From positions 1-41,835 of the forward strand of contig NKIM01000040.1 of the NCBI GenBank assembly GCA_002255955.1: a DNA stretch of 41,835 nucleotides. Direction: 5' to 3'. A program made the position numbers and the translations under genes. Shown here piece by piece: positions 1-15,740 of this stretch (within the stretch, counting starts at the first letter, position 1; every line of letters begins with the position of its first letter). This DNA comes from Burkholderiales bacterium PBB2 (GTDB lineage Bacteria > Pseudomonadota > Gammaproteobacteria > Burkholderiales > Burkholderiaceae_C). Below the pieces are notes generated by a model. That model made no database searches and was not told where the DNA came from. It saw nothing but the letters and a program-made list of their open reading frames with translations.

Positions 1-1492
1 AGGCCTTCCACGGCAGGTCGCGGGTGTAGGTCTCGGGGCTGCCGCCAAAGATGGCGTCGACATCGCCGGTGGCATAGACCTGGCCCGAGAGGCCGGAGCC
101 GACCAGGGTCGGGATGTGCCAGCGGATGTAATCCCAGCTGCTGCTCTGGTCGCCGGTCCAGGTCACGGCATAGCGCTGGATGCCGGCCCAGCCCATCACG
201 GTCCACAAGAACGGCCGCGCGTCAGAGTTGTCGAGAATGCCCTTGAAAGCCGACTGGTTGGCATCCATGGCGAACTGGTAGCCCTGGCCGGTCCAGGCCA
301 CGTCCAGCTTCTGCGCGCGGGAGCCGGCCGTGCCGACTTCCCACTTGATCTTGTCCACACCGTTCTCGGTCCACAAGCCGGTGCGGAAGCCCAGATCGGC
401 CAGGCCCTTCACAACATCGGGCAGATCCGTGTAGCCGCAGCCATAGCCATCGTTGGGCAGGATCCAGCCGCCGGGCATGTCGTGCTCGCGGTATTTGCGG
501 GCCACCGAGTTCAGCACATCAGGTGTCTTGCCGGTCGGGCCATCGCTCCAGCCCTTGGGCACGGTGCCAGGCTTCTTGACGTTGTCGCCGTCGTTGTAGC
601 AATCGGCATCGCCGTACTCGTAGGCCCAGCGCGGCAGCAGGCGGGCGCGGCCGGTCAGCTCGGTGTAGCGGGCCAGCACCTCGCGGATGCTGGGGCCCAC
701 AAAGAAAAAGGCATCGAAGCGGCCCTCCTGGTGCTGCAGCGAGATCTGCTCGGGCGAGCGCAGGTCGTAGCTGCCATCGCTCCAGGTGTTGCGCAACATG
801 CCCCAGCCGCGCGAGCTCATCAAAAAAGGCGCAGGACTGGGCCGATCGCCCTCTTCCCAGCCGCCCGAGTACGAGACCTCGAGCTGCTTGCCCTTGAACT
901 CATACCGGCCATTCTGCTGGCCACCGCCGAAGAAGCGCTCGTCCTTCTGGCTGCTCAAGGTCTGCACGCTGAGCTTGTCGGCGATGTCCAGGCTTTGGGT
1001 TTCCTGCCAGAGCAGGCTGCGGTTGTCGGCCTTGTAGAGGGCCAGGCGCAAGGGCTTCTTGTAAACGCGCAGGGCCAGGGCCTCGGTCTTGAGCAGGTGG
1101 TGGTCGCCCTGATCGCTCCAGCTGTGGGCCACAGGCTGGCTGACGGTCTCGATGACGATGGGCGCCGCCTTGTCCGTGGCCGGCTGCAGCTGGTCCTTGG
1201 CACCGGCCCACAGGCGCAGCACATCGGGCTTGAGCAGGCTGATGCGCAGACGCATCTTGGTGTCGGTGCGCAAGTCCCATTGCTGCAGGCCTTCGCCTGG
1301 CGCAGGCGTGGCGGATGCGGGCACAGCCTGAATCTCGCGCAGCGCACCCAGCGGCGCCGCCGCCACCTCCGCCGCAGCCAGCAGCAGGCCACCGCAGACC
1401 TGGAGCACAGCGAGGGCCAAGGCCGGCGTGCGCAGCGCGGTGCTTGGCGCATGGCTTGGCAGCGTCGGCTGCGGTGAGCGGTTCTTGACCAT
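1..1492 (-). CDS. GH31 glycosidase, probable secreted alpha-N-acetylgalactosaminidase (3' end off window)
   Basis: The frame is open from the ATG at 1492 to the left edge, giving 497 residues; the C-terminal part lies outside the window. An in-frame ATG at 1498 also exists, but AGAGGG lies 8 bases before the ATG at 1492, which favours it. Residues 1-46 look like a long signal peptide ending near AAEVAAA, so the enzyme probably acts in the periplasm or outside. ERFFGGGQQNGRY (about 185-197) matches the GH31 N-terminal signature. WTGDQSSSW holds the likely acid/base Asp448, and KLDVAW places a likely nucleophile Asp397 51 residues earlier. GGWILPNDGYGCGY resembles the GH31 subgroup known to contain alpha-N-acetylgalactosaminidases, as I recall it. 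The divergent GalNAc catabolic genes support that substrate. GH31 membership is fairly sure; the substrate is inferred. Confidence 0.75.
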   Translation of the reverse strand, partial: MVKNRSPQPTLPSHAPSTALRTPALALAVLQVCGGLLLAAAEVAAAPLGALREIQAVPASATPAPGEGLQQWDLRTDTKMRLRISLLKPDVLRLWAGAKDQLQPATDKAAPIVIETVSQPVAHSWSDQGDHHLLKTEALALRVYKKPLRLALYKADNRSLLWQETQSLDIADKLSVQTLSSQKDERFFGGGQQNGRYEFKGKQLEVSYSGGWEEGDRPSPAPFLMSSRGWGMLRNTWSDGSYDLRSPEQISLQHQEGRFDAFFFVGPSIREVLARYTELTGRARLLPRWAYEYGDADCYNDGDNVKKPGTVPKGWSDGPTGKTPDVLNSVARKYREHDMPGGWILPNDGYGCGYTDLPDVVKGLADLGFRTGLWTENGVDKIKWEVGTAGSRAQKLDVAWTGQGYQFAMDANQSAFKGILDNSDARPFLWTVMGWAGIQRYAVTWTGDQSSSWDYIRWHIPTLVGSGLSGQVYATGDVDAIFGGSPETYTRDLPWKA

Positions 1493-1643
1493 CTGCATAT
1501 CCCTCTGAATCAACGACGTCCTGCAATTCCTCGCTGCCGCCTTTGGAACTGGCGCGGCCGGGTTTGCTGTGTGTGTGGGTGAGGCCGCCCGGGTGAACGG
1601 CCCTGTCCGTCTGCGCCGCGAGCCCCTCGCTCGTTTTGCGCAA

Positions 1644-1661
1644 ATCGAAAGCAATGGAAAG
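1644..1661 (-). promoter_or_regulatory. Candidate AgaR operator upstream of the GH31 gene
   Basis: ATCGAAAG (1644-1651) is followed by TGGAAAG (1655-1661), which puts the GAAAG cores 10 bases apart, about one helical turn. The same core recurs before every transcription unit of the island. This copy lies about 150 bases before the GH31 start, so the glycosidase is probably in the same regulon. Confidence 0.5.
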
Positions 1662-1799
1662 ACTCTATGCAGCACAAAGCAAGATGTCAACGAAGAAAAC
1701 CAGCAATACCCCTGCGAAAAAGACAAATTCAGTAGAAACCACTAGCAGAAATTCTTGCCGTACTTGTGAAAAGAAAGATTTTTATTGATACATTCTTGC

Positions 1800-1886
1800 T
1801 TCGAAAGTTTTGTTCCGAGCCGATGTGGCAGCCGCAGGACCGCAGTTGGCCCGCAATTTCGAAAGTTAAAGGTTTCGTTTCGAAAG
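1800..1886 (+). promoter_or_regulatory. Candidate AgaR operator cluster before the ABC transporter operon
   Basis: Three TTCGAAAG copies occur at 1800-1807, 1858-1865 and 1879-1886. The last sits in TTTCGTTTCGAAAG (1873-1886). Repeated TTTC blocks are the pattern described for enterobacterial AgaR sites, as I recall them, and the island encodes an AgaR-like repressor. No convincing -35/-10 pair was assigned. Confidence 0.55.
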
Positions 1887-2075: not shown

Positions 2076-3146
2076 ATGAAACCGACCGCCACACCGAGCC
2101 CTGACGCCGCCACTGCGCTGCCTCTGCCCCCAGCCCGCCGCGCCATCTGCCGCCGCCTGGCCCTGGCGGCCGGCAGCGCCGCCCTGCTCTCTGCGGGCTT
2201 GCTCAGCGGCCCCGCCCTGGCCGCCGAGGCCGCTGCGCCGATCAAGATCGGTTTCATCATCAAGCAGGTCGACGAGCCCTGGTTCCAGGACGAATGGCGC
2301 CATGCCGAGCAGGCCGCCAAGGACAAAGGCTTCACTTTGATCAAGATCGCGGCGCCCGATGGCGACAAGCTGCTCTCCGCCATCGACAACCTGGCCGCGC
2401 AGCGCGCCCAGGGCATGATCGTCTGCGCCCCCGATGTGAAGCTGGGCCCGGCCCTGCAGGCGCGGGCGCGCCAGGCCAATCTCAAGTTGATCAGCGTGGA
2501 CGACCGCCTGGTCAACGGCGCCGGCAAACCGATCGAGGCGATTGCCCATGTCGGCATCTCGGCCAGCGCCATCGGCGCCCAGGTCGGCGAGGCCTTGCTG
2601 GCCGAAGTGAAAAAGCGCGGTTGGAAGCTGGCCGAGGTCGGCGCACTGCGCGTCACCTATGACCAGCTCAGCACCTCCAAGGAGCGCACCGATGGCAGCA
2701 GCGCCGTGCTGACCCAGGCCGGCCTGCCGGCCGCCAACATCGTCAGCGCCCCCATGCCCAAGGCCGACACCGAAAACGCCTTCAACGCCGCCACCGTGGC
2801 CCTGACCCAGAACCCGAAGTTCAAGCAGTGGCTGGTCTTCGGCCCCAATGACGAGGCCGTGCTCGGCGGCGTGCGCGCCAGTGAGGGCAAGGGCTTCAAG
2901 GCCGCCAGCGTGATCGGCGTGGGCATCGGCGGCAGCCAGTCGGCCGTCAACGAGTTCGCCAAGGCCGAGCCCACCGGCTTCGTCGCCATCGTGATGCTGA
3001 GCCCGCGCAAGCATGGCTATGACACAGCGGTCGCCATGTTCGACTGGATCAAGAACGGCAAAGAGCCCCCGAAGCTGACCCTGACCAGCGGCACCCTGGC
3101 GGACCGCGCCAACTTCAAGCAGGTGCGAACCAGCCTGGGCCTGTGA
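2076..3146 (+). CDS. Periplasmic sugar-binding protein of CUT2 ABC transporter (AraF-like)
   Basis: This 356-residue protein starts at the ATG at 2076, with AGGAGA 6 bases upstream; the frame stays open further upstream but without a ribosome site. Residues 1-49 form a twin-arginine-like or long Sec leader ([21 protein letters not shown]) ending near ALAA. The mature part begins [19 protein letters not shown], typical of periplasmic binding protein type I domains of the arabinose-binding (AraF) branch. It would capture the sugar and deliver it to the permease and ATPase encoded next. The family suggests arabinose, but no arabinose enzymes are present and all neighbours handle amino sugars, so I infer GalNAc or galactosamine as ligand. 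The next gene starts 4 bases after its stop. Confidence 0.85.
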
Positions 3147-3150
3147 CGTC

Positions 3151-4689
3151 ATGAAGCAGGACCTGCACATCCGCGCGCTCAGCAAATCCTTCCCCGGCGT
3201 GCGCGCTCTGGGCGGCGTGGACCTCGACATCCCGGCCGGCCAGGTTCATGCCCTGCTGGGCGAGAACGGCGCGGGCAAGAGCACGTTGCTGAAAATCCTC
3301 GGCGGCGAGCTGCGCCCCGATGGCGGCAGCCTGCAGCTCGCCGGCCAGACCCTGCAGTTCAAGAGTGCGGCCGATGCGCTGAACCAGGGCATTGCCGTCA
3401 TCCACCAGGAGCTGCAATACATCCCCGAGATGACGGTGCTGGAGAACCTCTGGCTGGGCCGCCTGCCGCAGCGCTGGGGATTCGTGCGCTTTGCCGAGGC
3501 GCGCGCGCAGATGCGGGCCCAGCTGGCCCGCATCGGCATCGCGCTCGACCTGGACGCCCGCATGATCGAGCTGTCCATCGGCCAGCGCCAGATGGTGGAG
3601 ATCTGCAAGGCGGTGCTGCGCGATGCGCGCGTGATCGCGCTGGACGAGCCGACCAGCTCGCTCTCGCACAGCGAGACCGAGACCCTGTTCCGCCTGGTGC
3701 GCGAGCTGCGCGATCAGGGCAAGGTGCTGATTTACGTGTCGCACCGCCTGGATGAAATCTTCGCCCTCTGCGACGGCGCCAGCGTGCTGCGCGATGGCCG
3801 CTCGGTCGGCCGCTTCGCCAGCCTGCAAGGTGTCAGCCGCGATCAGCTGGTGCAGGCCATGGTGGGCCGCGAGATCCAGGATGTGTTCGGCAGCGGCAAG
3901 AAGAATTCAACAAGGGATAACGCAACAGCTGCACGCAACCCGCGCCTTCAGGTGCACCAGCTGAGCGGCCGCAGCCTGCCCGAGCCGGCCAGCTTCGAGG
4001 TCGCCGCCGGCGAGATCGTCGGTTTCTTCGGCCTGATGGGCGCGGGCCGCAGCGAGCTGATGCGCCTGGTCTTTGGCGCCGACCCGCGCCGTGGCGGCCA
4101 GGTGTGGCTGGACGGCGAGCTGATGCGCAGCGATTCGGTCGCCGGCTCGATCGCCGCCGGTCTGATGTTCTGCCCCGAGGACCGCAAGGAGCAAGGCATC
4201 ATCGGCTGCCGCTCGGTGGCCGAGAACATCAACCTCAGCTGCCGACGCAACACGCCGGGCCTGCTGATCAACGCCCGGCGCGAGGCCGAAGTGGCAGCCG
4301 AGTTCATCGCCCGCCTGCGCATCAAGACACCCAGCCCGGCGCAGGAGATCCGCCTGCTCTCGGGCGGCAACCAGCAAAAAGCCATCCTGGCCCGCTGGCT
4401 GGCCGAGCGCGAGCTCAAGGTGCTGATCATCGACGAGCCGACCCGCGGCATCGACATCGGCGCCAAGAGCGAAATTTACGAGGTGCTGCATGAACTGGCC
4501 GCGCGCGGCGTGGCCATCGTCGTGGTGTCCAGCGAGCTGCCCGAGGTGCTGGGCCTGGCCGACCGCGTGCTGGTCATGCGCCAGGGCCGCATCGCCGGCA
4601 GCCTGGCCCGCGGCGAAGCCAACGAAGCCCGGGTGCTGGCCCTGGCCCTGCCCGATGGCGGCGCCCGCCCAGAAGCTGAGGCGGCCTGA
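3151..4689 (+). CDS. CUT2 sugar ABC transporter, tandem ATP-binding subunit (AraG-like)
   Basis: This 512-residue subunit has two nucleotide-binding domains in one chain, the hallmark of CUT2 (ribose/arabinose-type) importers. The first domain has Walker [10 protein letters not shown] (38-46), Q-loop region HQELQY, signature [11 protein letters not shown], and Walker [11 protein letters not shown]. The second has the degenerate Walker [10 protein letters not shown], the [11 protein letters not shown] segment typical of the family, and signature [15 protein letters not shown] followed by [14 protein letters not shown]. It energises uptake of the sugar bound by the upstream protein. It starts 4 bases after that gene and precedes the permease by 41 bases, so the three are co-transcribed. 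An AT-richer linker ([14 protein letters not shown], around base 3900) joins the two halves. Confidence 0.9.
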
Positions 4690-4730
4690 AGCCCTCTCCT
4701 CGCCTGTCACCGAATCCTGAATCGACCCCG

Positions 4731-5747
4731 ATGAACACGAGCACCGACTCTTTGTCCTCCAAGCCCATGCCAGAGCCCATGCAAGCTGCCGCCGCCTCTT
4801 CCCCCACCCCGCGAAAGACCCTGCTGCGCCTGCTGGACGAGCACAGCCTGCTGCTGATTTTTGCCCTGCTCTTCGGCGTGCTTTCGCTGACGGTGGAGTA
4901 CTTCTTCAGTGTGCCGAACATGATCGGCCTGGCCCTGTCGGTCTCGCAGATCGGCATGGTGGCCTGCGCCATGACCTTCTGCATCGCCTCGCGCGACTTC
5001 GACCTGTCCATCGGCTCCACCGTCGCCCTGGCCGGCGTGCTCTGCGCCACCGTGATCAACCAGACCGAGAGCATCGCCCTGGGCATTGCCGCGGCCCTGG
5101 CGGCCGGCGCCGTGATCGGCTGGGTCAATGGCGTGGTGATCGCGCGTTGGAAGATCAATGCCTTGATCACCACCTTGGCCACCATGGAGATCGTGCGCGG
5201 CCTGGCCTTCATCACCGCGGGCGGCCAGGCGGTGGGCATCTCGGCCGATGCCTTCTTCGAGCTCGGCAATGCCTTCTGGCTGGGCCTGCCGGTGCCGGTC
5301 TGGATCACCATCGCCTGCGTGGCCTTGTTCGCCCTGCTGCTCAACCGCACCATCTACGGCCGCAACACCCTGGCCATCGGCGGCAACCCCGAGGCCGCCC
5401 GCCTGGCCGGCATCAACGTCGCCCGCGTGCGCATCACCATCTTCCTGATCCAGGGCGTGGTGGCGGCGGCGGCCGGCGTCATCCTGGCCGCGCGCATCAC
5501 CAGCGGCCAGCCCAATGCGGCGCAAGGCTTCGAGCTCAATGTGATCTCGGCCTGCGTGCTCGGCGGTGTCTCGCTGATGGGCGGCCGTGCCAGCATCTCG
5601 GGCATGGTGGTGGGCGTGCTCATCATGGGCACGGTGCAGAACGCGATGAACCTGCTCAATATCGACGCCTTCTACCAGTACATGGTGCGCGGCGGCATCT
5701 TGCTGCTGGCCGTGGCCCTGGACCAGCTGCGCCGCAAAGACAGTTAA
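4731..5747 (+). CDS. CUT2 sugar ABC transporter permease (AraH-like)
   Basis: This 338-residue integral membrane protein has about eight to ten hydrophobic segments after a polar N-terminus of about 35 residues. FDLSIGSTVALAGV and GGNPEAARLAGINV are the conserved permease motifs of the ribose/arabinose branch; the second includes the loop that contacts the ATPase. It forms the inner-membrane channel for the binding protein and ATPase encoded just upstream. It is the last gene of the transporter unit. A 117-base region with GAAAG boxes and a candidate promoter follows, so agaS may be transcribed both by read-through and from its own promoter. Confidence 0.9.
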   Translation: MNTSTDSLSSKPMPEPMQAAAASSPTPRKTLLRLLDEHSLLLIFALLFGVLSLTVEYFFSVPNMIGLALSVSQIGMVACAMTFCIASRDFDLSIGSTVALAGVLCATVINQTESIALGIAAALAAGAVIGWVNGVVIARWKINALITTLATMEIVRGLAFITAGGQAVGISADAFFELGNAFWLGLPVPVWITIACVALFALLLNRTIYGRNTLAIGGNPEAARLAGINVARVRITIFLIQGVVAAAAGVILAARITSGQPNAAQGFELNVISACVLGGVSLMGGRASISGMVVGVLIMGTVQNAMNLLNIDAFYQYMVRGGILLLAVALDQLRRKDS

Positions 5748-5751
5748 GCCT

Positions 5752-5857
5752 GTTTCTCGAAAGAAACTTCTTTTGCTTCATCGTAATTTCTTTTCTTTTC
5801 ATCAATTTTCTTGACGAATCGAAAGTTAAAAGATAAATTTACCGACAATCTTTCGAT
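5752..5857 (+). promoter_or_regulatory. Candidate agaS promoter with flanking AgaR boxes
   Basis: TTGACG (5811-5816), a 17-base spacer and TAAATT (5834-5839) form a plausible sigma-70 promoter ending about 25 bases before the agaS ATG. ATCGAAAG (5818-5825) lies inside the spacer. Its exact inverse CTTTCGAT (5850-5857) lies just past the expected start of transcription, so the two arms are separated by 24 bases. Further upstream are GTTTCTCGAAAGAAAC (5752-5767) and a run of TTTC repeats (5787-5810). Repressor bound to these arms would cover the promoter. Confidence 0.55.
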
Positions 5858-5864
5858 CTATCCG

Positions 5865-7067
5865 ATGACTACTCTTCTCAACCGCTCCGCCAGCGACTGG
5901 CAGCACTTGCAAGGCCTGGCCACGGCGGAGGAAATCGCGCAGCAGCCGCGCGTCTGGCGCCAACTGGCCGCCTCGCTGGCCGACCACCAGGCCCAGCTGC
6001 ACGCCTTTCTGGACGCCTGGCTGAAAGAACCCAGTCACCGCGTCATCCTGACCGGCGCTGGCAGCTCGGCCTATGTGGGCCAGACCCTGGCCGACGAGAT
6101 CAACCGCGACTGGCCGGCCGAAGTGCGCGCCGTGGCCACCACCAGCTTGCTGACCCACCCCGAGCTCTATCTGCAGCGCGAGCAGCCCACCTTGCTGGTG
6201 TCCTTCGCACGCAGCGGCAACAGCCCGGAAAGCCTGGCTGCCGTCGAGCTGCTGCGTCAGCAGATCGATGCGCCGCGCTTCCTGAATATCACCTGCAATG
6301 CCGAGGGCGAGCTCTACCGCAACAACGCCGCCCGCGCCGACACCCTGAACCTGCTGATGCCGGCCGCCTCCTGCGACCGCGGTTTTGCCATGACCAGCAG
6401 CTTCAGCAGCATGCAGCTGGCCGCCCTGGCTGCCTTCAGCCGCGCCCCCTGGGCCGAGCGCCTGGCCCGCCTGGAACTGGTGGCGAGCCGTGCCGAGGCC
6501 TTGCTGGCCCAGCATGCGGCCACCCTGGCCGAGCTGGCCGCCCAGCCTTTTGACCGCATCGTCTACCTGGGCAGCGGCCCGCTGGAGGCGCTGGCGCAAG
6601 AGTCGGCGCTCAAGGTGCTGGAGCTGACCAGCGGCCGCGTGCTGGCCTTCTCGAACACCTTGCTGGGCTTCCGCCACGGCCCCAAGTCCATGCTCAATGG
6701 CAAGAGCCTGGTCGTGATCTTCCAGTCGCAAGACGCGCATGCGCGCCGTTATGAGCAAGACCTGCTGAACGAGCTGCTGCGCGACGGCATTGCCGGCCGC
6801 GTGCTGCTGATCGGCGAGGCCGGTGCCGGCGCGCTGCAGGGCGACAACCCTCTGCTGAGCCGCGCCCTGAGCGCCGCGCCCAGCGGCCTGAGCGACAGCT
6901 GGCTGACCACGCTGTGGCTGATCCTGGCGCAGCAGTACGCCCTGCACCGCTCGGTGGCCCTGGGCCTGACGCCGGACAATCCCTTCCCCGATGGCACGGT
7001 CAACCGGGTCGTGCAGGGTGTGGAGATTTATCCCTATGTCGAGTCCGCCCGTGTCCACTGCGACTGA
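5865..7067 (+). CDS. agaS: Galactosamine-6-phosphate deaminase/isomerase, SIS domain (AgaS)
   Basis: This 400-residue protein has two SIS (phosphosugar isomerase) domains. GAGSSAYVGQTLADEI (about 64-79) and FARSGNSPESLAAVELL mark the first; GSGPLEALAQESALKVLEL and FRHGPKSML mark the second. The arrangement matches AgaS (384 residues in E. coli) and the isomerase half of GlmS. AgaS converts galactosamine-6-phosphate to tagatose-6-phosphate plus ammonia. The ATG at 5865 was chosen because the longer frame would start with TTG at 5811 and translate the promoter and operator. Its last 32 bases overlap the kinase gene, which suggests translational coupling. Confidence 0.88.
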   Translation: MTTLLNRSASDWQHLQGLATAEEIAQQPRVWRQLAASLADHQAQLHAFLDAWLKEPSHRVILTGAGSSAYVGQTLADEINRDWPAEVRAVATTSLLTHPELYLQREQPTLLVSFARSGNSPESLAAVELLRQQIDAPRFLNITCNAEGELYRNNAARADTLNLLMPAASCDRGFAMTSSFSSMQLAALAAFSRAPWAERLARLELVASRAEALLAQHAATLAELAAQPFDRIVYLGSGPLEALAQESALKVLELTSGRVLAFSNTLLGFRHGPKSMLNGKSLVVIFQSQDAHARRYEQDLLNELLRDGIAGRVLLIGEAGAGALQGDNPLLSRALSAAPSGLSDSWLTTLWLILAQQYALHRSVALGLTPDNPFPDGTVNRVVQGVEIYPYVESARVHCD

Positions 7068-8013
7068 GTCCAGCCCGCCGGCCGGCGCGCCCTGCTACGG
7101 CCTGGACATCGGCGGCACCAAGATCGAGCTGGTCGCCTTTGACGCGAGTACCCCCGGCTTCGCCGAGCTCTACCGCCGCCGCGTGGCCACGCCCACACAG
7201 GATTTCGAGGCTTTTGTTGAAGCCATCGGCGCGCTGGTGGCAGAAGCCGATCAGACCCTGGCTTGCATCGGCCGTGTGGGCCTGGGCCTGCCCGGCATCA
7301 TCAGCCCGCAGACGGGCTTGCAGCTCAGCTCGAACGTGCCCGCGCTCAGCGGCCGCGCCGTGCCGCAAGCCCTGCGTGAGCGCCTGGGCCGGCCTGTGGC
7401 CATCGGCAATGACTGCCAGTGCTTTGCCCTGTCCGAGGCGCAAGGCGGCGCGGCGGAAGGGTTTGCTTCGATGTTCGGCGCCATTCTCGGCACCGGGGCA
7501 GGCGGCGGCTTTTGCGTCCAGGGCCGGCTGATCGCCGGCTACAACGGACTGGCCGGTGAGTGGGGCCACTGGGCCTTGCCGGCGCTGCTGCAACAGCGCC
7601 ACCGCCTGCCCCTGCTGGCCTGTGCCTGCGGGCTGCAAAGCTGTGTCGAGCGCTACGTCTCGGGCAGCGGCCTGGCGGCCCTGTTCCAGCATTTCGGCGG
7701 CCCGGCGGGCCAGTCCGTGCCCCAGATCGTGGCCGCGGCCGATGCGGGCGAGGCCCACGCGCGCCAGGCCCTGGCCGTGCATCTGGACCTGCTGGGCCAT
7801 GCCCTGGCCGGCCTGATCATGGCCTACGACCCCCATGTGCTGGTGCTGGGCGGGGGGCTGTCCAAGCTGCAAAGCCTCTACGCCGATCTGCCCGAGGCGA
7901 TTCGCCCGCATCTCTTCCAGGGCGTCAGCGTGCCGCCCATCCTGCCGCCGCGCTTCGGCGATGCCGGCGGCGCGCGCGGTGCCGCGCTGCTGGCCCGCCA
8001 GCGTCTGAGCTGA
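7036..8013 (+). CDS. agaK: ROK-family sugar kinase, probable N-acetylgalactosamine kinase
   Basis: This 325-residue ROK kinase begins at the ATG at 7036, inside the end of agaS. The phosphate-binding motif LDIGGTK (Asp24), the catalytic Asp126 in IGNDCQCF, the ATP-binding GTGAGGG, and a zinc site formed by EWGHW (His178) and CACGLQSC (Cys196, Cys198, Cys203) are all present. It would phosphorylate the imported sugar at O6 with ATP. The gene set imports by ABC transporter, which does not phosphorylate, so a dedicated kinase is required; that makes GalNAc the likely substrate. Close relatives act on N-acetylglucosamine or glucose, so the specificity is inferred from context alone. Confidence 0.8.
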   Translation: MSSPPVSTATESSPPAGAPCYGLDIGGTKIELVAFDASTPGFAELYRRRVATPTQDFEAFVEAIGALVAEADQTLACIGRVGLGLPGIISPQTGLQLSSNVPALSGRAVPQALRERLGRPVAIGNDCQCFALSEAQGGAAEGFASMFGAILGTGAGGGFCVQGRLIAGYNGLAGEWGHWALPALLQQRHRLPLLACACGLQSCVERYVSGSGLAALFQHFGGPAGQSVPQIVAAADAGEAHARQALAVHLDLLGHALAGLIMAYDPHVLVLGGGLSKLQSLYADLPEAIRPHLFQGVSVPPILPPRFGDAGGARGAALLARQRLS

Positions 8014-8047
8014 AGCCCGCCGCGTCCCCTCTCTTTCCTTTCTGATC

Positions 8048-9337
8048 ATGTCCCACCTGCTTGCCACCATCACGGCCCACCGCAGCGGCCAGCCTGTCGG
8101 CCTCTACAGCGTCTGCTCGGCCAATCCTTTCGTGCTGCAGGCGGCGATGGAGGTGGCGCGCGCCTACGACACGCCGCTGCTGATCGAATCGACCTCCAAC
8201 CAGGTGGACCAGTTCGGCGGCTACACCGGCATGACGCCGCCGCAGTTCCGCGACTATGTGCAGGCCTTGGCGGCCGAGGCCAACTTCCCGCTCGATCGCA
8301 TCGCCTTGGGCGGTGACCACCTGGGCCCCAATGCCTGGCAGCATCTGCCGGCCGCCGAGGCCATGGGCCATGCCCGCGTGCTGATCGAGGCCTATGTGGC
8401 GGCGGGCTTCGAGAAGATCCACCTCGACTGCAGCATGGCCTGCGCCGACGACGCCCGGCCGCTCAGCGACGCGACCGTGGCCGCGCGCTCGGCCGATCTG
8501 GCCCTGGTGGCCGAGGCCACGACCGCGCGCCTGGGTTTGACGCCGCCGGTCTATGTGATCGGCACCGAGGTGCCGGTGCCGGGCGGCGAGGCCTCGCTGG
8601 GCGGCGGCGTGGCCGTCACCGCGCCGGCCGCGGCGGCCGCCACCTTGGCGGTGCATGAGCAGGCATTTGCGGCCCAGGGCTTGGATGCAGCCTGGCAGCG
8701 CGTGATCGCCATGGTGGTGCAGCCCGGTGTCGATTTCGACCACAGCCAGGTCCAGCATTACCAACCGGCTGCCGCCGCCGCGCTGTCCGCTTTTGTGCAA
8801 GCCCAGCCGCGCCTGGTCTTCGAGGCCCACTCGACCGACTACCAGACCGAGGCCTCGCTGCACGCCCTGGTGCGCGATCACTACGCCATCCTCAAGGTCG
8901 GCCCGGCGGTCACTTTTGCCTTGCGCGAGGCCTGGTTTGCACTCTCGGCCATCGAGCGCGAGCTGCTGCCGACCGAACATCAGGCCGACCTGCCCGGCGT
9001 GCTGGAGCGCTGCATGCTGAACGAGCCCAAGCATTGGGCCAAGCACTATGCCGGCAGCGCGGACGCGCAGCGCCTGCTGCGCCGCTTTGCCTTCAGCGAC
9101 CGCTGCCGCTACTACTGGGGCGAGCCCGAGGTGCAAGCCGCCTTGCAGCGCCTGATCGCCAATCTGAAAGCCAGCAGCATTCCCCTGCCCTTGCTGAGCC
9201 AGCATCTGCCGCAGCAGTTCGAGGCCGTGCTGGCCGGCGAACTGGCGTCCGAGCCCGCAGCCCTGGCCCGCCACAAAGTGGGGCTGGAATTGGCCCGCTA
9301 TGCCCGGGCCTGTGCCCGCAACCGCCACGCCGCCTGA
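8048..9337 (+). CDS. kbaZ: KbaZ/GatZ/AgaZ-family protein (tagatose-phosphate metabolism)
   Basis: This 429-residue protein opens LLATITAHRSGQPVGLYSVCSANPFVLQAA and contains LGGDHLGPNAW, KIHLDCSMACADD and VIGTEVPVPGGE, all characteristic of the KbaZ/GatZ/AgaZ family (PF08013), with length as usual. In E. coli the family member is described as a non-catalytic partner that stabilises the class II tagatose-1,6-bisphosphate aldolase KbaY/GatY. Other members are reported as ketose or ketose-phosphate C4-epimerases or were once annotated as tagatose-6-P kinases. No KbaY/GatY homologue lies in this window, so this copy may act alone on tagatose-6-phosphate. It follows the kinase by 34 bases in the same operon. 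Confidence 0.85.
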   Translation: MSHLLATITAHRSGQPVGLYSVCSANPFVLQAAMEVARAYDTPLLIESTSNQVDQFGGYTGMTPPQFRDYVQALAAEANFPLDRIALGGDHLGPNAWQHLPAAEAMGHARVLIEAYVAAGFEKIHLDCSMACADDARPLSDATVAARSADLALVAEATTARLGLTPPVYVIGTEVPVPGGEASLGGGVAVTAPAAAAATLAVHEQAFAAQGLDAAWQRVIAMVVQPGVDFDHSQVQHYQPAAAAALSAFVQAQPRLVFEAHSTDYQTEASLHALVRDHYAILKVGPAVTFALREAWFALSAIERELLPTEHQADLPGVLERCMLNEPKHWAKHYAGSADAQRLLRRFAFSDRCRYYWGEPEVQAALQRLIANLKASSIPLPLLSQHLPQQFEAVLAGELASEPAALARHKVGLELARYARACARNRHAA

Positions 9338-9360
9338 GTGCCCGACCGAGGCACGGACAC

Positions 9361-9392
9361 ATCGAAAGTACCAATATCTCGATTCTTTCGTT
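9361..9392. promoter_or_regulatory. Candidate AgaR operator between kbaZ and agaR
   Basis: ATCGAAAG (9361-9368) and the near inverse CTTTCGTT (9385-9392) face each other across 16 AT-rich bases, in the 155-bp gap before agaR. The box is the same as at the agaS promoter, with shorter spacing. Confidence 0.5.
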
Positions 9393-9474
9393 CAACTAAG
9401 ATTCATTCCGATCACAAGCTTTGAACCGAGCCCGCCACGAGCCAGCTTGAGTTTGAGCCCATAAAACTTCTTGA

Positions 9475-9482
9475 ATCGAAAG
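9475..9482 (+). promoter_or_regulatory. AgaR box overlapping the agaR leader (autoregulation)
   Basis: ATCGAAAG ends 10 bases before the agaR ATG. Repressor bound here would block transcription or elongation of agaR and nagA, which is consistent with the autoregulation common in the DeoR family. Confidence 0.45.
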
Positions 9483-9492
9483 CCACGAGTCC

Positions 9493-10269
9493 ATGAGGAA
9501 TACCCGAGAGCGGCGCGAACAAATCCTGCAGATGCTGATGGAGCAAGGCAGCGTGCAGGTGGCCGAGCTGGTGCCCATGATGGGCGTGTCGGCCGTGACC
9601 ATTCGTACCGACCTGAGCGTCTTCGAGGACCAGGGCCTGGTCACCCGCAACTACGGCGGCGCCAGCATGAACCGCATGCCACCACAGGAGCAGAACATCC
9701 GCCAGAAGGATGAGCTGAACTCGACGCTGAAAGAGCGCATCGGCGCACGCGCCGCCGCCCTGGTCGAGCCGGGCGACAACATCATCATCGACTCGGGCAC
9801 CACCACCATGCCCCTGGCCCGCCATCTGCGCCACCTGCCGGCCGACGCCCGCGTGACGGTGATGACCAACGGCCTGAACATCGCCTGGGAGCTGGCCGAC
9901 GCCGAGGGTGTGGAGCTGATGCTGACCGGCGGCCTGCTGCGCAAGAAGTCGCTGTCCATCCAGGGCTCGCAGGCCGAGGCCAGCCTGAACGGCTACAACT
10001 TCGACAAGCTCTTCCTCGGCGTGGACGGCCTGGACCTGCAGTTCGGCATCACCACCCACCACGAGGCCGAGGCCAGCATCAACCGCAAGATGGTCGAGCG
10101 CGCCAAAAAGGTCTTCGTCGTCAGCGACGCCTCCAAGTTCGGCCGGGTCAGCCTGCACCGCATCATCCAGATGGACCGCGTGCACACCGTCATCACCGAT
10201 GCGGGCATCAACCAGGAGTACCGCGAAGGCTTGCTGCGCCTCGGCATCGAACTGATCGTGGTCGACTGA
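9493..10269 (+). CDS. agaR: DeoR-family transcriptional repressor of GalNAc catabolism (AgaR-like)
   Basis: This 258-residue regulator has a DeoR winged helix at about 5-58 (RREQILQMLMEQGSV, then VSAVTIRTDLSVFEDQGLV) with the conserved RNYGGA exit. The C-terminal sugar-phosphate-binding domain is related to ribose-phosphate isomerase; DSGTTTMPLARHL and FLGVDGLD are its typical motifs. Family members dissociate from DNA on binding a phosphorylated intermediate, here perhaps galactosamine-6-phosphate or tagatose-6-phosphate (inferred). GAAAG boxes lie upstream of the GH31 gene, the transporter, agaS and agaR itself, so one repressor could control the whole island. nagA follows by 35 bases. Confidence 0.87.
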   Translation: MRNTRERREQILQMLMEQGSVQVAELVPMMGVSAVTIRTDLSVFEDQGLVTRNYGGASMNRMPPQEQNIRQKDELNSTLKERIGARAAALVEPGDNIIIDSGTTTMPLARHLRHLPADARVTVMTNGLNIAWELADAEGVELMLTGGLLRKKSLSIQGSQAEASLNGYNFDKLFLGVDGLDLQFGITTHHEAEASINRKMVERAKKVFVVSDASKFGRVSLHRIIQMDRVHTVITDAGINQEYREGLLRLGIELIVVD

Positions 10270-10304
10270 TGTCGAATCACGTACTTTCCTAACCTGTCAC
10301 TTCC

Positions 10305-11414
10305 ATGAACCCGCAGCAGTCCCTCTCGGGTCGCATCCTCGGCCCGCAGGGCTGGGTGCGCGGCCATCTCGAACTCCAAGCCCACGGGCGCATCGCCGCC
10401 CTGCATGAGGACGCCTGCGCGCCCGAGGACCGGCTGATCCTGCCTGGCTTTGTCGACCTCCATGTGCACGGCGGCCTGGGCGTGGACATCATGGAGGGCG
10501 GCGAGAGCGCCCGCACCGTCGCGCGCGCCCATGCCCGCCACGGCACGACCAGCCTGCTGGCCACCACCATGACCGCGCCGCAAGGCGATATCGAGCGCGC
10601 CCTGCAAGGCATTGGCGCGGTGATGGCCGAGCCGCGAGCCGACGAGGCGCGCATCCTCGGCGTGCATCTGGAAGGCCCTTACCTGAGCTCACGCCGGCTC
10701 GGTGCCCAACCCGACATCGTCAGCCGCGCCACGCTGGAGGCGGTGCAGGCCTTCTCTGCCCTGGCGGCCATCAAGGTGCTGACCCTGGCGCCCGAGATCC
10801 CCGGCCACCTGGCCCTGATCCCCGAGCTCAGCGCCCTGGGCATCCGCGTGCAGATCGGCCACAGCGCCGGCAGCTACGAGGACGGCGTGGCCGCACTCAA
10901 GGCCGGCGTGGCCGGCTTCACCCATCTGTTCAACGGCATGCCGGGGCTCAACCATTACGAGCCCGGCATGGTGGGCGCGGCCCTGGCCCATGCCGAGTAC
11001 GCGGAGCTGATCCCCGATCTGCAGCATGTGCACCCGGGCGCCATGCGCGCGGCCCTGCGCGCCATCCCCAAGCTCTACTGCGTGACTGACGCCACCGCGG
11101 CAACCGGCATGCCGGACGGCGAATACAGCCTGGGCTCGCAGCGCGTGCTCAAGTGCCTGGGCTGCGTGCGCCTGGCCACCGGCTCCCTGGCCGGCAGCGC
11201 CCTGACCATGGATCAGGCCTTGCGCAATCTGGTCGAGGTGGGCCTCAGCGTGGAAGACGCTTCGGCGCGCCTCTCGCGCAACCCGGCCGACTACCTGGGC
11301 CTGGCCGAGCGCGGCCGCCTGCAGGCCGGCGCCTGGGCCGATGTGGTGGTGTTGGATACGGACTTGCAGCTGCAACAGGTCTGGGTGCAAGGCCAGAGCG
11401 TCTCGCTGGATTGA
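10305..11414 (+). CDS. nagA: N-acetylgalactosamine/N-acetylglucosamine-6-phosphate deacetylase
   Basis: This 369-residue amidohydrolase of the NagA/AgaA family is close to the usual 380 residues. His53 and His55 (DLHVHGG), Glu123 in HLEGPYLS, His186 in QIGHSAGSY, His207 in FTHLFNGMPGL and catalytic Asp262 in VTDATAATGM align with the metal ligands and catalytic acid of E. coli NagA (E131, H195, H216, D273). It removes acetate from the 6-phosphorylated sugar, supplying the substrate of AgaS. The neighbourhood suggests GalNAc-6-phosphate, the AgaA role. It is the last gene of the island and is followed by a hairpin terminator. The ATG at 10305 lies 35 bases after agaR. Confidence 0.88.
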   Translation: MNPQQSLSGRILGPQGWVRGHLELQAHGRIAALHEDACAPEDRLILPGFVDLHVHGGLGVDIMEGGESARTVARAHARHGTTSLLATTMTAPQGDIERALQGIGAVMAEPRADEARILGVHLEGPYLSSRRLGAQPDIVSRATLEAVQAFSALAAIKVLTLAPEIPGHLALIPELSALGIRVQIGHSAGSYEDGVAALKAGVAGFTHLFNGMPGLNHYEPGMVGAALAHAEYAELIPDLQHVHPGAMRAALRAIPKLYCVTDATAATGMPDGEYSLGSQRVLKCLGCVRLATGSLAGSALTMDQALRNLVEVGLSVEDASARLSRNPADYLGLAERGRLQAGAWADVVVLDTDLQLQQVWVQGQSVSLD

Positions 11415-11530
11415 ACACAGCCTTGAAGCTCGACTCGGGAAACTCCCGAGCGCTGACTTTCGGCACACCCGGCCATGGCGGGTAGGCTCAGGCCAACCGA
11501 TCTCCACATGCGCGGTCTGCCCCGATTGCC

Positions 11531-11570
11531 AATGCCCGGTTTCGCAGGAAGCCGGGCATTTCCCATTTCT
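11531..11570 (+). terminator. Rho-independent terminator after nagA
   Basis: A 13-bp stem (11531-11543 with 11548-11560, one G-U pair) closes a GCAG loop and is followed by the pyrimidine-rich TCCCATTTCT. It ends the GalNAc island and separates it from the metallopeptidase pair. The run of T is imperfect. Confidence 0.65.
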
Positions 11571-11601
11571 GAACCTGATCTTTGATTTGCGAACTCCCGC
11601 C

Positions 11602-13653
11602 ATGAACGCCTTCCAACACTGCACCCTGGTGGCCCTGCTCCACGTCGCCGGCATCTCGGGCCTGAGCGCGCTGGCCAGCGGCGCGGCCCTGGCCGCGGAC
11701 GCGCCGGCCTCCGGCCTGGACCTGCCCTACTTCGACCGCAAGGTGCGGGTGCAGGACGACCTGTTCCGCGCCACCAACGGCGGCTGGATCAAGGCCACCA
11801 CCATCCCGGCCGACAAGGGCTCCTGGGGCAGCTTTGAAAAACTGGCCGAGCTCAGCGACCAGCGCGTGCGCGCCCTGGCCGAGGGCCTGGCCGCGCAGCC
11901 TCAGGCCGAAGGCAGCAAGGAGGCCAAGATCGGCCAGTTCTACGCTGCCTTTCTGGACATTGCCCGCATCGACCGCGAGGGCCTGAGCGCCCTGCAGCCG
12001 CGCCTGGACGAGATCGCCGCACTGGCCAGCCGCGAGCAGCTGCTGGTCTGGCTGGGCTCGGCGCAAGGCCAGCTGCGCCAGCCCTTCCGCCTGGGCCTGG
12101 GCCCCGACCCCAAGGAGCCCATGGTCAACCGCCTGCAGCTGGCCCAGTCGGGCCTGGGCCTGCCCGAGCGCGACTACTACCTGAACCAGCGCGACCCCAG
12201 CCTGGCCAAGGCACGCAGCGCCTACCTGGCCTACCTGAGCAAGCTGGCGCGCCTGAGCGGCGAAGCCCAGCCGGCCGAAGCCGCACGCCGCGTGCTGGCC
12301 CTGGAAACGCGCATGGCCAAGGCGCATTGGGACGTGGTCAGCAGCCGCGATGTGCAAAAGACCTACAACCCGATGACGCCGGCCGAGCTGAGCGCAGCCG
12401 CGCCGGGCCTGGACTGGAACGCCTTCTTCGCCGCCGCCCAGCTCAAGGCCGTGGACAAGCTGACCGTGGCCCAGCCCAGCGCCATCCGCGGCCTGGCCCA
12501 ATTGCTGGCCGAGGCACCACTGGCCGACTGGAAGCTCTACGCCAAGCTGCACACCCTGGACGCCCACGCTGCCGTGCTGCCCCAGCCCTTCCGCGCCGCC
12601 GCCTTTGCCTTCCACGGCCGCGCCATGAGCGGCACGCAGCAGGAGCTGCCGCGCTGGAAGCAAGGTGTGGATGCGATCAACGAGGCCCTGGGCGAAGCCG
12701 TGGGCGAGCTCTACGTGGCCCAGCATTTCCCGCCGGCGCAAAAGGCGCGCATGCAGGAGCTCGTGGCCAATCTGCTGGCCGCCTACAAGAGCTCGGTCGA
12801 CGGCCTGAGCTGGATGACGCCCGAGACCCAGCTGCAGGCGCAGGACAAGCTGTCCAAATACCTGGTCAAGATCGGCTACCCCGATGTCTGGCGCGACTAC
12901 AGCGCCCTGCAGGTCAGGGCCGGCGACGCGATCGGCAACCAGCAGCGCGCGGCGCAGTTCGCCTGGGCCCGCGAGGCCGCCAAGCTGGGCCAGAAGGTCG
13001 ACCGCAGCGAATGGGGCATGGTGCCGCAGCAGGTCAATGCCTACTACAACGAGACCTTCAACGAGATCGTCTTCCCGGCCGCCATCCTGCAGCCGCCCTT
13101 CTTCGACATGAAGGCCGATGACGCGGTCAACTACGGCGGCATCGGTGCCGTGATCGGCCACGAGATCAGCCACGGCTTCGACGACCAGGGCGCCCAGTAC
13201 GACGGCGACGGCATGCTGCGCGACTGGTGGCAACCGGCCGACCGCAAGGCCTTCGAAGCCCTGGGCCAGCGCCTGGCCCAGCAGTTCAGCGCCTACCAGG
13301 CCCTGCCCGGCAAGCGCGTCAATGGCCAGCTGACCTTGGGCGAGAACATCGCCGACCTGTCGGGCTTGCAGATCGCCTTCAAGGCCTATCAGGCCTCGCT
13401 GGGCGGCAAGCCGGCGCCGGTGCTGGATGGCTACACCGGTGAGCAGCGCTTCTTCCTCGGCTTCGCGCAGATCTGGCGAGAGAAGGTGCGCCCGCCCCTG
13501 CTGTTGCAGCAGCTGATGGCCGACCCGCATTCGCCGGGCCAGTTCCGCGCCAACGGCGGCGTGGTCAACCACGACGCCTTCCACCAAGCCTTCGGCACCC
13601 GCAAGGGCGACCGCCTGTTCAAGCCCGAGGGCGAGCGCATCCGCATCTGGTGA
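11602..13653 (+). CDS. M13 (neprilysin/PepO-type) zinc metallopeptidase, first of tandem pair
   Basis: This 683-residue secreted peptidase starts at the ATG at 11602; the longer open frame would run back into nagA and the terminator. A signal peptide covers about 1-32 (ending ALAADA). The catalytic domain carries GHEISHGFDDQG, with zinc ligands His520 and His524 and catalytic Glu521, and the third ligand Glu581 in LGENIADLSG. NAYYNETFNEIVFPAAILQPPFF-type substrate-binding sequence precedes it. M13 enzymes cleave short peptides in the periplasm or outside. The next gene, 44 bases on, is a paralogue of about 60-65% identity by eye. No link to the upstream sugar island is evident. Confidence 0.92.
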   Translation: MNAFQHCTLVALLHVAGISGLSALASGAALAADAPASGLDLPYFDRKVRVQDDLFRATNGGWIKATTIPADKGSWGSFEKLAELSDQRVRALAEGLAAQPQAEGSKEAKIGQFYAAFLDIARIDREGLSALQPRLDEIAALASREQLLVWLGSAQGQLRQPFRLGLGPDPKEPMVNRLQLAQSGLGLPERDYYLNQRDPSLAKARSAYLAYLSKLARLSGEAQPAEAARRVLALETRMAKAHWDVVSSRDVQKTYNPMTPAELSAAAPGLDWNAFFAAAQLKAVDKLTVAQPSAIRGLAQLLAEAPLADWKLYAKLHTLDAHAAVLPQPFRAAAFAFHGRAMSGTQQELPRWKQGVDAINEALGEAVGELYVAQHFPPAQKARMQELVANLLAAYKSSVDGLSWMTPETQLQAQDKLSKYLVKIGYPDVWRDYSALQVRAGDAIGNQQRAAQFAWAREAAKLGQKVDRSEWGMVPQQVNAYYNETFNEIVFPAAILQPPFFDMKADDAVNYGGIGAVIGHEISHGFDDQGAQYDGDGMLRDWWQPADRKAFEALGQRLAQQFSAYQALPGKRVNGQLTLGENIADLSGLQIAFKAYQASLGGKPAPVLDGYTGEQRFFLGFAQIWREKVRPPLLLQQLMADPHSPGQFRANGGVVNHDAFHQAFGTRKGDRLFKPEGERIRIW

Positions 13654-13697
13654 GCGCCCGCCTTCGACCTCGCCCACTTCTCAGGAAGAAACCGACC

Positions 13698-15740
13698 ATG
13701 TTGAAAACCCCTTTCAAGCTCGCCACCCTGGCCTTGCTGACCCAGCTGGCCTTCGGTGCCGGCCCGACCCTGGCCGCCGAAACTGCCGCGCCCACCATCC
13801 AGGGCCTGGACCGCAGCAGCTTCGACCCCAGCGTACGGCCGCAGGACGATCTGTTCCGCGCCGTCAACGGCCTGTGGCTGAAGAACACCGAGATCCCCGC
13901 TGACAAATCGCGTTATGGCAGCTTTGACCTGCTGATCGACCAGTCCGACGCACGCGTGCGCGCCCTGATCGACGAGCTGGCCCGCGGCCAGCACGCCGCC
14001 GGCAGCAATGCCCAGAAGATCGCCGACTACTACCGCAGCCACCTCGACACCGAGGCGATCGAGCGCGCCGGCCTGGCGCCCATCCAGCCGCTGCTGAAAG
14101 AGATCTCGGCCATCAAGGACCGAACGGCGCTGGCGCAATGGCTGGGCCGCTCACAGCTCTTCGCCGCCTCGCCGGTGCGCGTGGGCGTGACGGCCGAGGC
14201 CAAGAACCCCAAGATGAATGGCGTGCGCATGGGCCAGAGCGGCCTGGGCCTGCCGGATCGCGACTACTACCTGCTCAAGGACGACGCTCGCATGGCCAAG
14301 GCTCACGAGGCCTACCGCGCCTATCTGAGCCAGCTGGCTGGCTTCGCTGGCGAGGCCGAGCCGGCTGCAGCGGCCCAACGCGTGCTGGCCCTGGAAGAGC
14401 GCATCGCCACCGTGCATTGGGACAAGGTCGACAACCGCAACCCGGTCAAGACCAACAACCCGACCCGCGTGGCCGATCTGCGCGAGCAGGCACCCGGCTT
14501 CGACTGGACGGCCTATCTGGAATCGGCCGGCCTGGGCAAGACCACCAGCATCGATGTGGCCCAGCCCAGCGCCATCCGCGCCCTGGCCGGCCTGCTGGCC
14601 GAGCAGCCGCTGGAGGACTGGAAGCTCTACCTGCGCCTGCACGCCCTGAGCCGCAGCGCCGATGTGCTGCCCAAGGCCGTGCGCGAGGCCAACTTTGCCT
14701 TCCGCCAGGCCCTGACCGGCGCCAAGGCCGAGCTGCCGCGCTGGCAACAGTCCATCAACGACACCAACAGCGCGCTCGGCGAGGCGGTGGGCGAGCTCTG
14801 GGTGGCGCGCCACTTCCCGGCCGCCTACAAGGCCCGCATGCAGACGCTTGTGGCCAATTTGATGGCCGCCTACAAGGACTCGATCGATGGCCTGAGCTGG
14901 ATGAGCCCGGCCACCAAGGCGCAGGCCCAGGACAAGCTGTCCAAGTACACGACCAAGATCGGCTACCCCGAGCAGTGGCGCGACTACAGCCGCCTCGAGG
15001 TCAAACCCGGTGATGCCTTCGGCAACAGCCAGCGCGCGGCGCGCTTCGCCTGGGAGCGCATGGTGGCCAAGGCCGGCCAGCCGGTGAACCGCAAGGAATG
15101 GGGCATGACGCCGCAGACCGTCAACGCCTACTACAGCGGCTCGGCCAACGAGATCGTCTTCCCGGCCGCCATCCTGCAGCCGCCCTTCTTCAGCATGGAA
15201 GCGGACGACGCCATCAACTACGGCGCCATCGGTGCTGTGATTGGTCATGAGATCAGCCACGGCTTTGACGACCGCGGCAGCCAGTTCGACGGCGACGGCG
15301 TGCTGCGCGACTGGTGGACCAAGGAAGACCGCGCTGCCTTCGAAGCCATCGCTACCAAGCTGGTGGCGCAGTACGAGGGCTACCAGCCCCTGCCCGGCAA
15401 ACGCATCAACGGCCGCCTGACCCTGGGCGAGAACATCGCCGACTTGTCCGGCCTGCAGATCGCCTACAAGGCCTACTTGCGCTCGCTGGGCGGCAAGCCG
15501 GCGCCGGTGATCGGCGGCACGACGGGCGCCCAGCGCTTCTTCCTCGGCTTCTCGCAGATCTGGCGCAACAAGTACCGCGACGAACGCCTGCTGCAGCAGC
15601 TGACCACGGACAGCCACTCGCCCGGCGAGTTCCGCGCCAACGGCACGGTCAGCAACCACGACGGCTTCCACGAGGCCTTCGGCACCAAGGCTGGTGACGC
15701 CTTGTTCAAGCCGGCCGCCGAGCGCCTGCGCATCTGGTGA
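13698..15740 (+). CDS. M13 (neprilysin/PepO-type) zinc metallopeptidase, second of tandem pair
   Basis: This 680-residue paralogue of the preceding gene starts at the ATG at 13698, behind an AGGAAG ribosome site. A signal peptide runs to about residue 29 (LAAE). The zinc motif GHEISHGFDDRG (His517, Glu518, His521) and GENIADLSG (Glu578) are intact, and both copies end in ERxRIW. Divergence is greatest in the N-terminal lid domain (residues 30-450), where substrate size is normally set, and least around the catalytic site. That suggests a duplication with a changed peptide preference (inferred). The pair is probably one transcript ending at the strong terminator 27 bases downstream. Confidence 0.92.
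   Translation: MLKTPFKLATLALLTQLAFGAGPTLAAETAAPTIQGLDRSSFDPSVRPQDDLFRAVNGLWLKNTEIPADKSRYGSFDLLIDQSDARVRALIDELARGQHAAGSNAQKIADYYRSHLDTEAIERAGLAPIQPLLKEISAIKDRTALAQWLGRSQLFAASPVRVGVTAEAKNPKMNGVRMGQSGLGLPDRDYYLLKDDARMAKAHEAYRAYLSQLAGFAGEAEPAAAAQRVLALEERIATVHWDKVDNRNPVKTNNPTRVADLREQAPGFDWTAYLESAGLGKTTSIDVAQPSAIRALAGLLAEQPLEDWKLYLRLHALSRSADVLPKAVREANFAFRQALTGAKAELPRWQQSINDTNSALGEAVGELWVARHFPAAYKARMQTLVANLMAAYKDSIDGLSWMSPATKAQAQDKLSKYTTKIGYPEQWRDYSRLEVKPGDAFGNSQRAARFAWERMVAKAGQPVNRKEWGMTPQTVNAYYSGSANEIVFPAAILQPPFFSMEADDAINYGAIGAVIGHEISHGFDDRGSQFDGDGVLRDWWTKEDRAAFEAIATKLVAQYEGYQPLPGKRINGRLTLGENIADLSGLQIAYKAYLRSLGGKPAPVIGGTTGAQRFFLGFSQIWRNKYRDERLLQQLTTDSHSPGEFRANGTVSNHDGFHEAFGTKAGDALFKPAAERLRIW

Follow-up and report, generated by a model that had tools for sequence, protein, structure and literature searches.

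A PF08013 protein as a probable stand-alone tagatose-6-phosphate 4-epimerase in a conserved N-acetylgalactosamine operon

How does a bacterium use tagatose-6-phosphate when its N-acetylgalactosamine (GalNAc) operon encodes a relative of the aldolase subunit KbaZ, and no aldolase beside it? The question is raised by the window analysed here, a stretch of 41,835 nucleotides from Burkholderiales bacterium PBB2 (assembly GCA_002255955.1, contig NKIM01000040.1, positions 1 to 41,835). Between positions 5865 and 11414, the + strand carries agaS, a ROK-family kinase gene, a PF08013 gene, agaR, and a nagA/agaA-type deacetylase gene; all five are present and near-contiguous, with intergenic distances of -32 to 155 bp. 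We propose, with a probability of about 0.85, that the PF08013 protein (8048..9337, + strand) is a stand-alone tagatose-6-phosphate C4-epimerase giving fructose-6-phosphate within a conserved GalNAc operon. In the predicted pathway, the ROK kinase would convert GalNAc to GalNAc-6-phosphate, the deacetylase would yield galactosamine-6-phosphate, AgaS would produce tagatose-6-phosphate, and the PF08013 protein, free-standing and presumably metal-dependent, would convert the latter to fructose-6-phosphate. The epimerisation would probably involve retro-aldol cleavage of the C3-C4 bond followed by re-closure, replacing the branch that comprises a tagatose-6-phosphate kinase and the KbaY/GatY or LacD aldolase.

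The protein matches PF08013 over nearly its full length (616.3 bits, cut-off 26.7; residues 6-422 against positions 3-419 of a model of 420) and passes the cut-off of TIGR02810 (612.4 bits, cut-off 568.8). The subunit-specific models are not passed, with 594.4 of 707 bits for KbaZ (NF012002) and 505.5 of 579 bits for GatZ (NF011626). Identity is 56% with Escherichia coli KbaZ, 49% with GatZ, and 48.7% with the protein of the Sinorhizobium meliloti locus. All seven residues proposed as metal ligands or catalytic residues of GatZ (C20, E44, D87, H88, E171, H257, K279) are found in the window protein, their roles having been derived from a computed model and not from mutants (PMC11907403). The seven residues are intact in 90 of 90 sequences, with or without a KbaY/GatY partner. 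Two of these rows are probably redundant, as L105 and L106 are probably duplicates of L046 and L033, and the set excludes two E. coli loci, already there as KbaZ and GatZ, as well as L108 (G132:C1:1748000-1764000), a very distant PF08013 homologue with 24.6% identity to KbaZ and a score of 35.5 bits. Database names for the family vary: NCBIfam labels the PF08013 protein a non-catalytic aldolase subunit, and the related structures 2fiq and 3txv bear the words 'tagatose 6-phosphate kinase' in their PDB titles. The family is uncommon: in a sample of 369 genomes of the class, 6 have it, PBB2 among them.

The initial annotation had noted that the island lacks both KbaY/GatY and a tagatose-6-phosphate kinase gene, and the whole genome (5,481,661 bases in 90 contigs, 99.99% complete) gives the same picture. 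The window gene is its single PF08013 gene, and its single PF01116 gene encodes a fructose-bisphosphate aldolase (FBA; TIGR01521 590.6 bits, cut-off 496.35). This FBA is also the best match to the KbaY/GatY model TIGR01858, at 164.8 bits in the genome search and 215.6 bits for the whole protein (cut-off 443.55); with no catalytic subunit KbaY or GatY above the cut-off, the genome does not hold the full gene set of a KbaYZ or GatYZ complex. The LacC model TIGR01231 has no match at E<=0.001 in this genome, and LacD is absent, the sole PF01791 (DeoC/LacD) gene being that of a deoxyribose-phosphate aldolase (TIGR00126). Eight proteins match the PfkB family (PF00294), seven of which were scanned with NCBIfam, and none of the seven exceeds the cut-off of the tagatose-kinase, LacC or 1-phosphofructokinase models. 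Two candidates were rejected in the course of these searches: a KbaY/GatY elsewhere in the genome, on the searches of this and the relatives' genomes, and a LacC or LacD elsewhere in this genome, on profile searches.

The two absences do not carry the same weight. The initial annotation took the missing kinase gene as evidence, and it is not diagnostic, because no such gene is seen in the E. coli aga cluster, where pfkA is described as forming tagatose-1,6-bisphosphate from tagatose-6-phosphate (PMC10101011). The lack of KbaY/GatY, unlike that of the kinase gene, counts as evidence.

This arrangement is widespread. Among the best 80 of at least 562 confirmed related stretches, by title mostly from Burkholderiales and Xanthomonadales, the PF08013 gene is accompanied by genes for a ROK kinase in 79, AgaR in 79, AgaS in 77, and AgaA in 67 loci. 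AgaS, the ROK kinase, and AgaR occur together in 76 of the 80, and with AgaA in 64; these counts are not independent, since the 80 loci include many Stenotrophomonas near-copies. No class II aldolase was found in any of the 80 loci, with flanks of up to 10 kb per side, some ended by contig ends (L080, L085, and L089 among them). The same kind of tblastn search detects KbaY/GatY in the E. coli aga, E. coli gat, and Photobacterium clusters. Judging from these loci, the group as a rule lacks the aldolase partner. The possibility that the cluster is a degenerate local version of the E. coli type was considered and rejected, given the 76 loci that share AgaS, ROK kinase, and AgaR and the 0 of 80 with an aldolase. 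One locus, L091, titled Bacillus subtilis SK7B5, contains a Stenotrophomonas-type operon with a PF08013 protein 68% identical to that of the window, which suggests that the record is mislabelled or contaminated.

The genomes of the relatives agree with their loci. TIGR01858 is above its cut-off in none of 49 relatives' genomes and in none of 30 others (29 further relatives and the PBB2 genome). Any match to it at E<=0.001 occurs in 11 of the 49 and 9 of the 30, leaving 59 of the 78 relatives without one, although the model detects FBA elsewhere. A phosphofructokinase (PFK) match is present in 50 of 50 genomes, and it reaches at least 290 bits in only ten, PBB2 and nine relatives; the matches of the remaining genomes are at most 181 bits, which is the range of the pyrophosphate (PPi)-type PFK of PBB2. 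Both a TIGR01858 match and a strong match of the adenosine triphosphate (ATP)-type PFK are lacking in 38 of the 49 relatives, so that those 38 show no sign of a route that combines ATP-type PFK with a class II aldolase, class I aldolases lying outside the search. Matches to LacC below the cut-off are found in 20 of 50 genomes, the best at 120.2 of 409.55 bits, and in PBB2 there is none.

The epimerase activity of PF08013 proteins is itself already known and not new, as the initial annotation indicated. In engineered E. coli, gatZ was the only deletable candidate whose deletion abolished tagatose production, fbaA not being deletable; plasmid-borne gatZ restored production only together with the phosphatase gene hxpA, and kbaZ with hxpA did so as well, in contrast to fbaA, kbaY, and gatY (PMC11907403). 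That study reports that GatZ and KbaZ epimerise fructose-6-phosphate at C4 to tagatose-6-phosphate in E. coli cells, and it cites PF08013 members of Agrobacterium and Sinorhizobium as epimerases (PMC11907403). The class II aldolase FbaA is also described as capable of 4-epimerisation of fructose-6-phosphate, an activity normally repressed in vivo (PMC5434028). The stand-alone role suggested by the initial annotation for the window protein is thus supported in two ways: none of the 80 best loci shows a class II aldolase, and the activity of the family is published.

Several observations weigh against this assignment. The activity of GatZ was inferred from tagatose in engineered cells, and the plasmid rescue needed a phosphatase (PMC11907403). 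KbaZ and GatZ are treated as needed for the full aldolase activity of KbaY and GatY (PMC10101011, PMC3668189), so that the two proteins do have a helper role in E. coli. With the predicted fold, Foldseek and VIA place class II aldolases directly after two PF08013 structures, and therefore the fold is not decisive. In a midpoint-rooted tree of 33 of the 90 rows, picked for spread, the 26 that form the operon clade stand apart from the E. coli and rhizobial proteins, on long branches and with an unsure root. A strong ATP-type PFK match exists in PBB2 and in 9 of the 49 relatives, and in PBB2 this PFK and the FBA may provide a tagatose-bisphosphate route, class I aldolases lying outside the searches.

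The tree separates the operon clade both from KbaZ and the Photobacterium protein and from the three rhizobial proteins. Long branches lead to GatZ and L107, whose join has a support of 42/16; given these branches and the midpoint root, the tree is silent on which arrangement is older. L107 (G149:C1:1428000-1446000) is a divergent PF08013 gene that neighbours agaS and a gene for an AgaR-like protein in a genome of 2.0 Mb. No class II aldolase match was found in its 18 kb, and the gene may be a further stand-alone example that lies outside the main clade.

The regulation of the operon bears on the choice between an epimerase and a kinase-aldolase branch. AgaR probably controls the operon via TCGAAAG-type sites, a motif picked after reading the window, with the help of a CTTTC consensus. 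The window contains 11 such sites, compared with 2.93 expected. Three intergenic stretches with a combined length of 707 bp account for nine of them, and no site falls within the 9064 bp occupied by the operon genes. These putative AgaR operators comprise four sites between the glycoside hydrolase gene and the transporter genes (1645, 1801, 1859, and 1880; 1645..1886), three TCGAAAG/CTTTCGA sites 5' of agaS (5757..5856), and two 5' of agaR (9362..9482). The count over 67 other loci with full flanks, a less circular test, shows the motif 5' of agaS in 62, with a density of 4.5 sites per kb in that stretch vs 0.03 in the core of coding sequence, and 5' of agaR in only 17. The inverted pair at 5819-5856 is one of two such places genome-wide, the other close pair being L110 (G000:C37:166-195), near the start of contig C37.

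The initial annotation had asked whether an aldolase and a kinase might lie elsewhere in the same regulon. The genome has no KbaY/GatY or LacC, and no TCGAAAG lies within roughly 1.5 kb of the FBA gene, either PFK gene, or seven PfkB genes (loci of 3.9-4.0 kb for FBA and PFK); at the eighth PfkB gene, L007, one falls inside the matched coding stretch. The kinase and the aldolase of a tagatose-bisphosphate route are therefore not visibly part of the AgaR regulon.

Among the alternatives to an epimerase, the one that survives best is a route through housekeeping enzymes, in which an ATP-type PFK phosphorylates tagatose-6-phosphate, FBA cleaves the tagatose-1,6-bisphosphate, and the PF08013 protein stimulates FBA as KbaZ does KbaY. 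PBB2 possesses two PFKs (PF00365), one nearest to ATP-type and one nearest to PPi-type models, as well as the class II FBA, and its ATP-type PFK could in principle act on tagatose-6-phosphate. The role ascribed to pfkA in E. coli, the weakness of KbaY/GatY without KbaZ/GatZ (PMC10101011, PMC3668189), and the E. coli aga cluster with no kinase gene of its own point in the same direction. We nevertheless consider this route unlikely, as 38 of the 49 relatives have no TIGR01858 match from a model that also detects FBA and no PFK match above 181 bits, neither the PFK nor the FBA locus of PBB2 shows a TCGAAAG site, and the full proposed active site is kept, although a protein with a helper role alone could do without it. 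Less probable by a wide measure is phosphorylation by one of the PfkB-family kinases L005, L006, or L007, followed by cleavage by a class I aldolase outside the searches. In its favour, these three proteins are only weakly placed: a fructokinase model comes nearest, with scores far short of its cut-off. Against it, the best scores among the seven scanned proteins are 58.8 of 420 bits for the tagatose-kinase model and 87.7 of 216.4 bits for the hexose-kinase/1-phosphofructokinase model, none of the three lies on the contig of the operon, and the sole TCGAAAG is that inside the coding stretch of L007. That the PF08013 protein is itself the tagatose-6-phosphate kinase ('AgaZ'), followed by an unlinked aldolase, was proposed according to a 2025 review citing Leyn 2012 (PMC12118421) and matches the PDB titles of 2fiq and 3txv, and we give this the least credence of all.

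The kinase, deacetylase, AgaS, and KbaZ-family protein named in the initial annotation were all recovered by profile matches on the + strand, and the joint presence of AgaS, deacetylase, AgaR, and kinase marks a GalNAc (aga) catabolic operon. AgaS (5865..7067, +), the predicted galactosamine-6-phosphate deaminase/isomerase that would form tagatose-6-phosphate, has a PF01380 domain and 415.6 bits with TIGR02815, below the cut-off of 529.2; it is 43.8% identical to E. coli AgaS, and its PDB matches 3odp (300.5 bits) and 3c3j (273.1 bits) are both titled tagatose-6-phosphate ketose/aldose isomerase. The ROK-family sugar kinase (7036..8013, +; PF00480 217.7 bits), a probable GalNAc kinase (AgaK), passes no specific NCBIfam cut-off, its score with the N-acetylglucosamine-kinase model NF009835 being 287.3 bits, under 380; its start at 7036 would give a 32 bp overlap with agaS. 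AgaR (9493..10269, +) is predicted to be a DeoR-family repressor (NF040755 329.9 bits, cut-off 260), and the last gene (10305..11414, +) encodes a NagA/AgaA-type N-acetylhexosamine-6-phosphate deacetylase (TIGR00221 236.9 bits, cut-off 225.65; PDB NagA 2vhl 188.2 bits). The deacetylase gene is followed by two tandem M13-family metallopeptidase genes (11446-15740), with an M13 match elsewhere only in L018 among the 80 best loci.

An AraFGH-like ATP-binding cassette (ABC) transporter (2076-5747, +) precedes the agaS block. It consists of an AraF-like periplasmic sugar-binding protein (2076..3146, +; PF00532 143.2 bits; L-arabinose-binding protein 4kzk 412.9 bits), an AraG-like ATPase (3151..4689, +; NF008442 732.6 bits, cut-off 689), and an AraH-like permease (4731..5747, +; NF008441 512 bits, cut-off 378). 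Only the sibling L018 has both the binding protein and the permease among the 80 best loci, and a homologue of the major facilitator superfamily (MFS) sugar transporter found 3' of agaA in L022 occurs in 63 of them. The binding proteins of the window and L018 exhibit a glycine at the place of the sugar-binding Asn232 of the E. coli arabinose-binding protein, hinting at an altered sugar specificity, perhaps for GalNAc. Divergent from the operon, the contig end cuts off a glycoside hydrolase of family GH31, of which the 5' part is present (2..1498, - strand; start 1498 or 1492; PF13802 and PF01055 above cut-off) and which has a homologue in 67 of the 80 best loci. Its best PDB matches are 6m76 (LPXTG-motif protein, 219.5 bits), followed by 7f7r (217.5 bits) and 7f7q (216.1 bits), both named GH31 alpha-N-acetylgalactosaminidase, and it is perhaps such an enzyme. 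With GalNAc-pathway substrates assigned because of gene families, the content of the locus fits GalNAc release, uptake, phosphorylation, deacetylation, and deamination, ending at tagatose-6-phosphate.

If the PF08013 protein is an epimerase, the GalNAc pathway is complete in many genomes of Stenotrophomonas, Lysobacter, Massilia, and the Roseateles type in which it would otherwise seem to break off at tagatose-6-phosphate, GalNAc carbon enters metabolism at fructose-6-phosphate, and a collection of candidate enzymes for tagatose production becomes available. The saving of ATP expected by the initial annotation holds for the epimerase step and is lost if fructose-6-phosphate then passes the ATP-dependent PFK present in the genome. 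Glycolysis from fructose-6-phosphate costs ATP or PPi, a cost that entry to the Entner-Doudoroff pathway would avoid. The use of an epimerase in the GalNAc pathway appears under-recognised: in the literature searched, we found no published statement of it as a normal exit and no description of this variant ending, which Leyn 2012 or Wichelecki 2015 may contain. A term search for 'tagatose' in the accessible text of PMC11992087 gave no hit. A broader view, to which we give somewhat less than even odds, is that PF08013 proteins are C4-epimerases first, that the stand-alone route is standard in operon-bearing Burkholderiales and Xanthomonadales, that KbaZ and GatZ offer E. coli a parallel epimerase exit, and that the textbook end of the pathway needs redrawing.

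Three known systems resemble the operon in different respects. The AgaK/AgaA(II)/AgaS pathway of Shewanella and other proteobacteria, reportedly described by Leyn in 2012, has the same logic of kinase, deacetylase, AgaS, and AgaR. The 2025 review draws its last steps as phosphorylation by LacC, or by AgaZ as has been proposed, and cleavage by a tagatose-bisphosphate aldolase (PMC12118421), whereas no dedicated aldolase was found in the genome of the window. The E. coli proteins KbaZ and GatZ share the active-site residues of the window protein, and KbaZ, too, is encoded alongside agaS and agaR in a GalNAc cluster. In contrast to the window, the E. coli aga and gat clusters carry a class II aldolase, KbaY or GatY, and genes of a phosphotransferase system (PTS) in place of the sugar kinase. 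A parallel in proposed reaction is found in the rhizobia: D-tagatose-6-phosphate 4-epimerases of PF08013 have reportedly been described by Wichelecki in 2015 for Agrobacterium tumefaciens C58 and by Kohlmeier in 2019 for Sinorhizobium meliloti. These enzymes reportedly serve the breakdown of galactitol, altritol, and tagatose together with a PfkB-type kinase. A sugar kinase gene adjoins the PF08013 gene in Rhizobium (L102) and Aureimonas (L103), the neighbours in Aureimonas being an annotated sugar kinase and dehydrogenases, a ribokinase-like match is present in Sinorhizobium (L101), and none of the three loci shows a class II aldolase match. The rhizobial enzymes thus share with the window protein the family, the active-site residues, the proposed reaction, and, in the three loci covered here, a gene with no adjoining KbaY/GatY; unlike theirs, the tagatose-6-phosphate of the window would come from GalNAc via AgaS.

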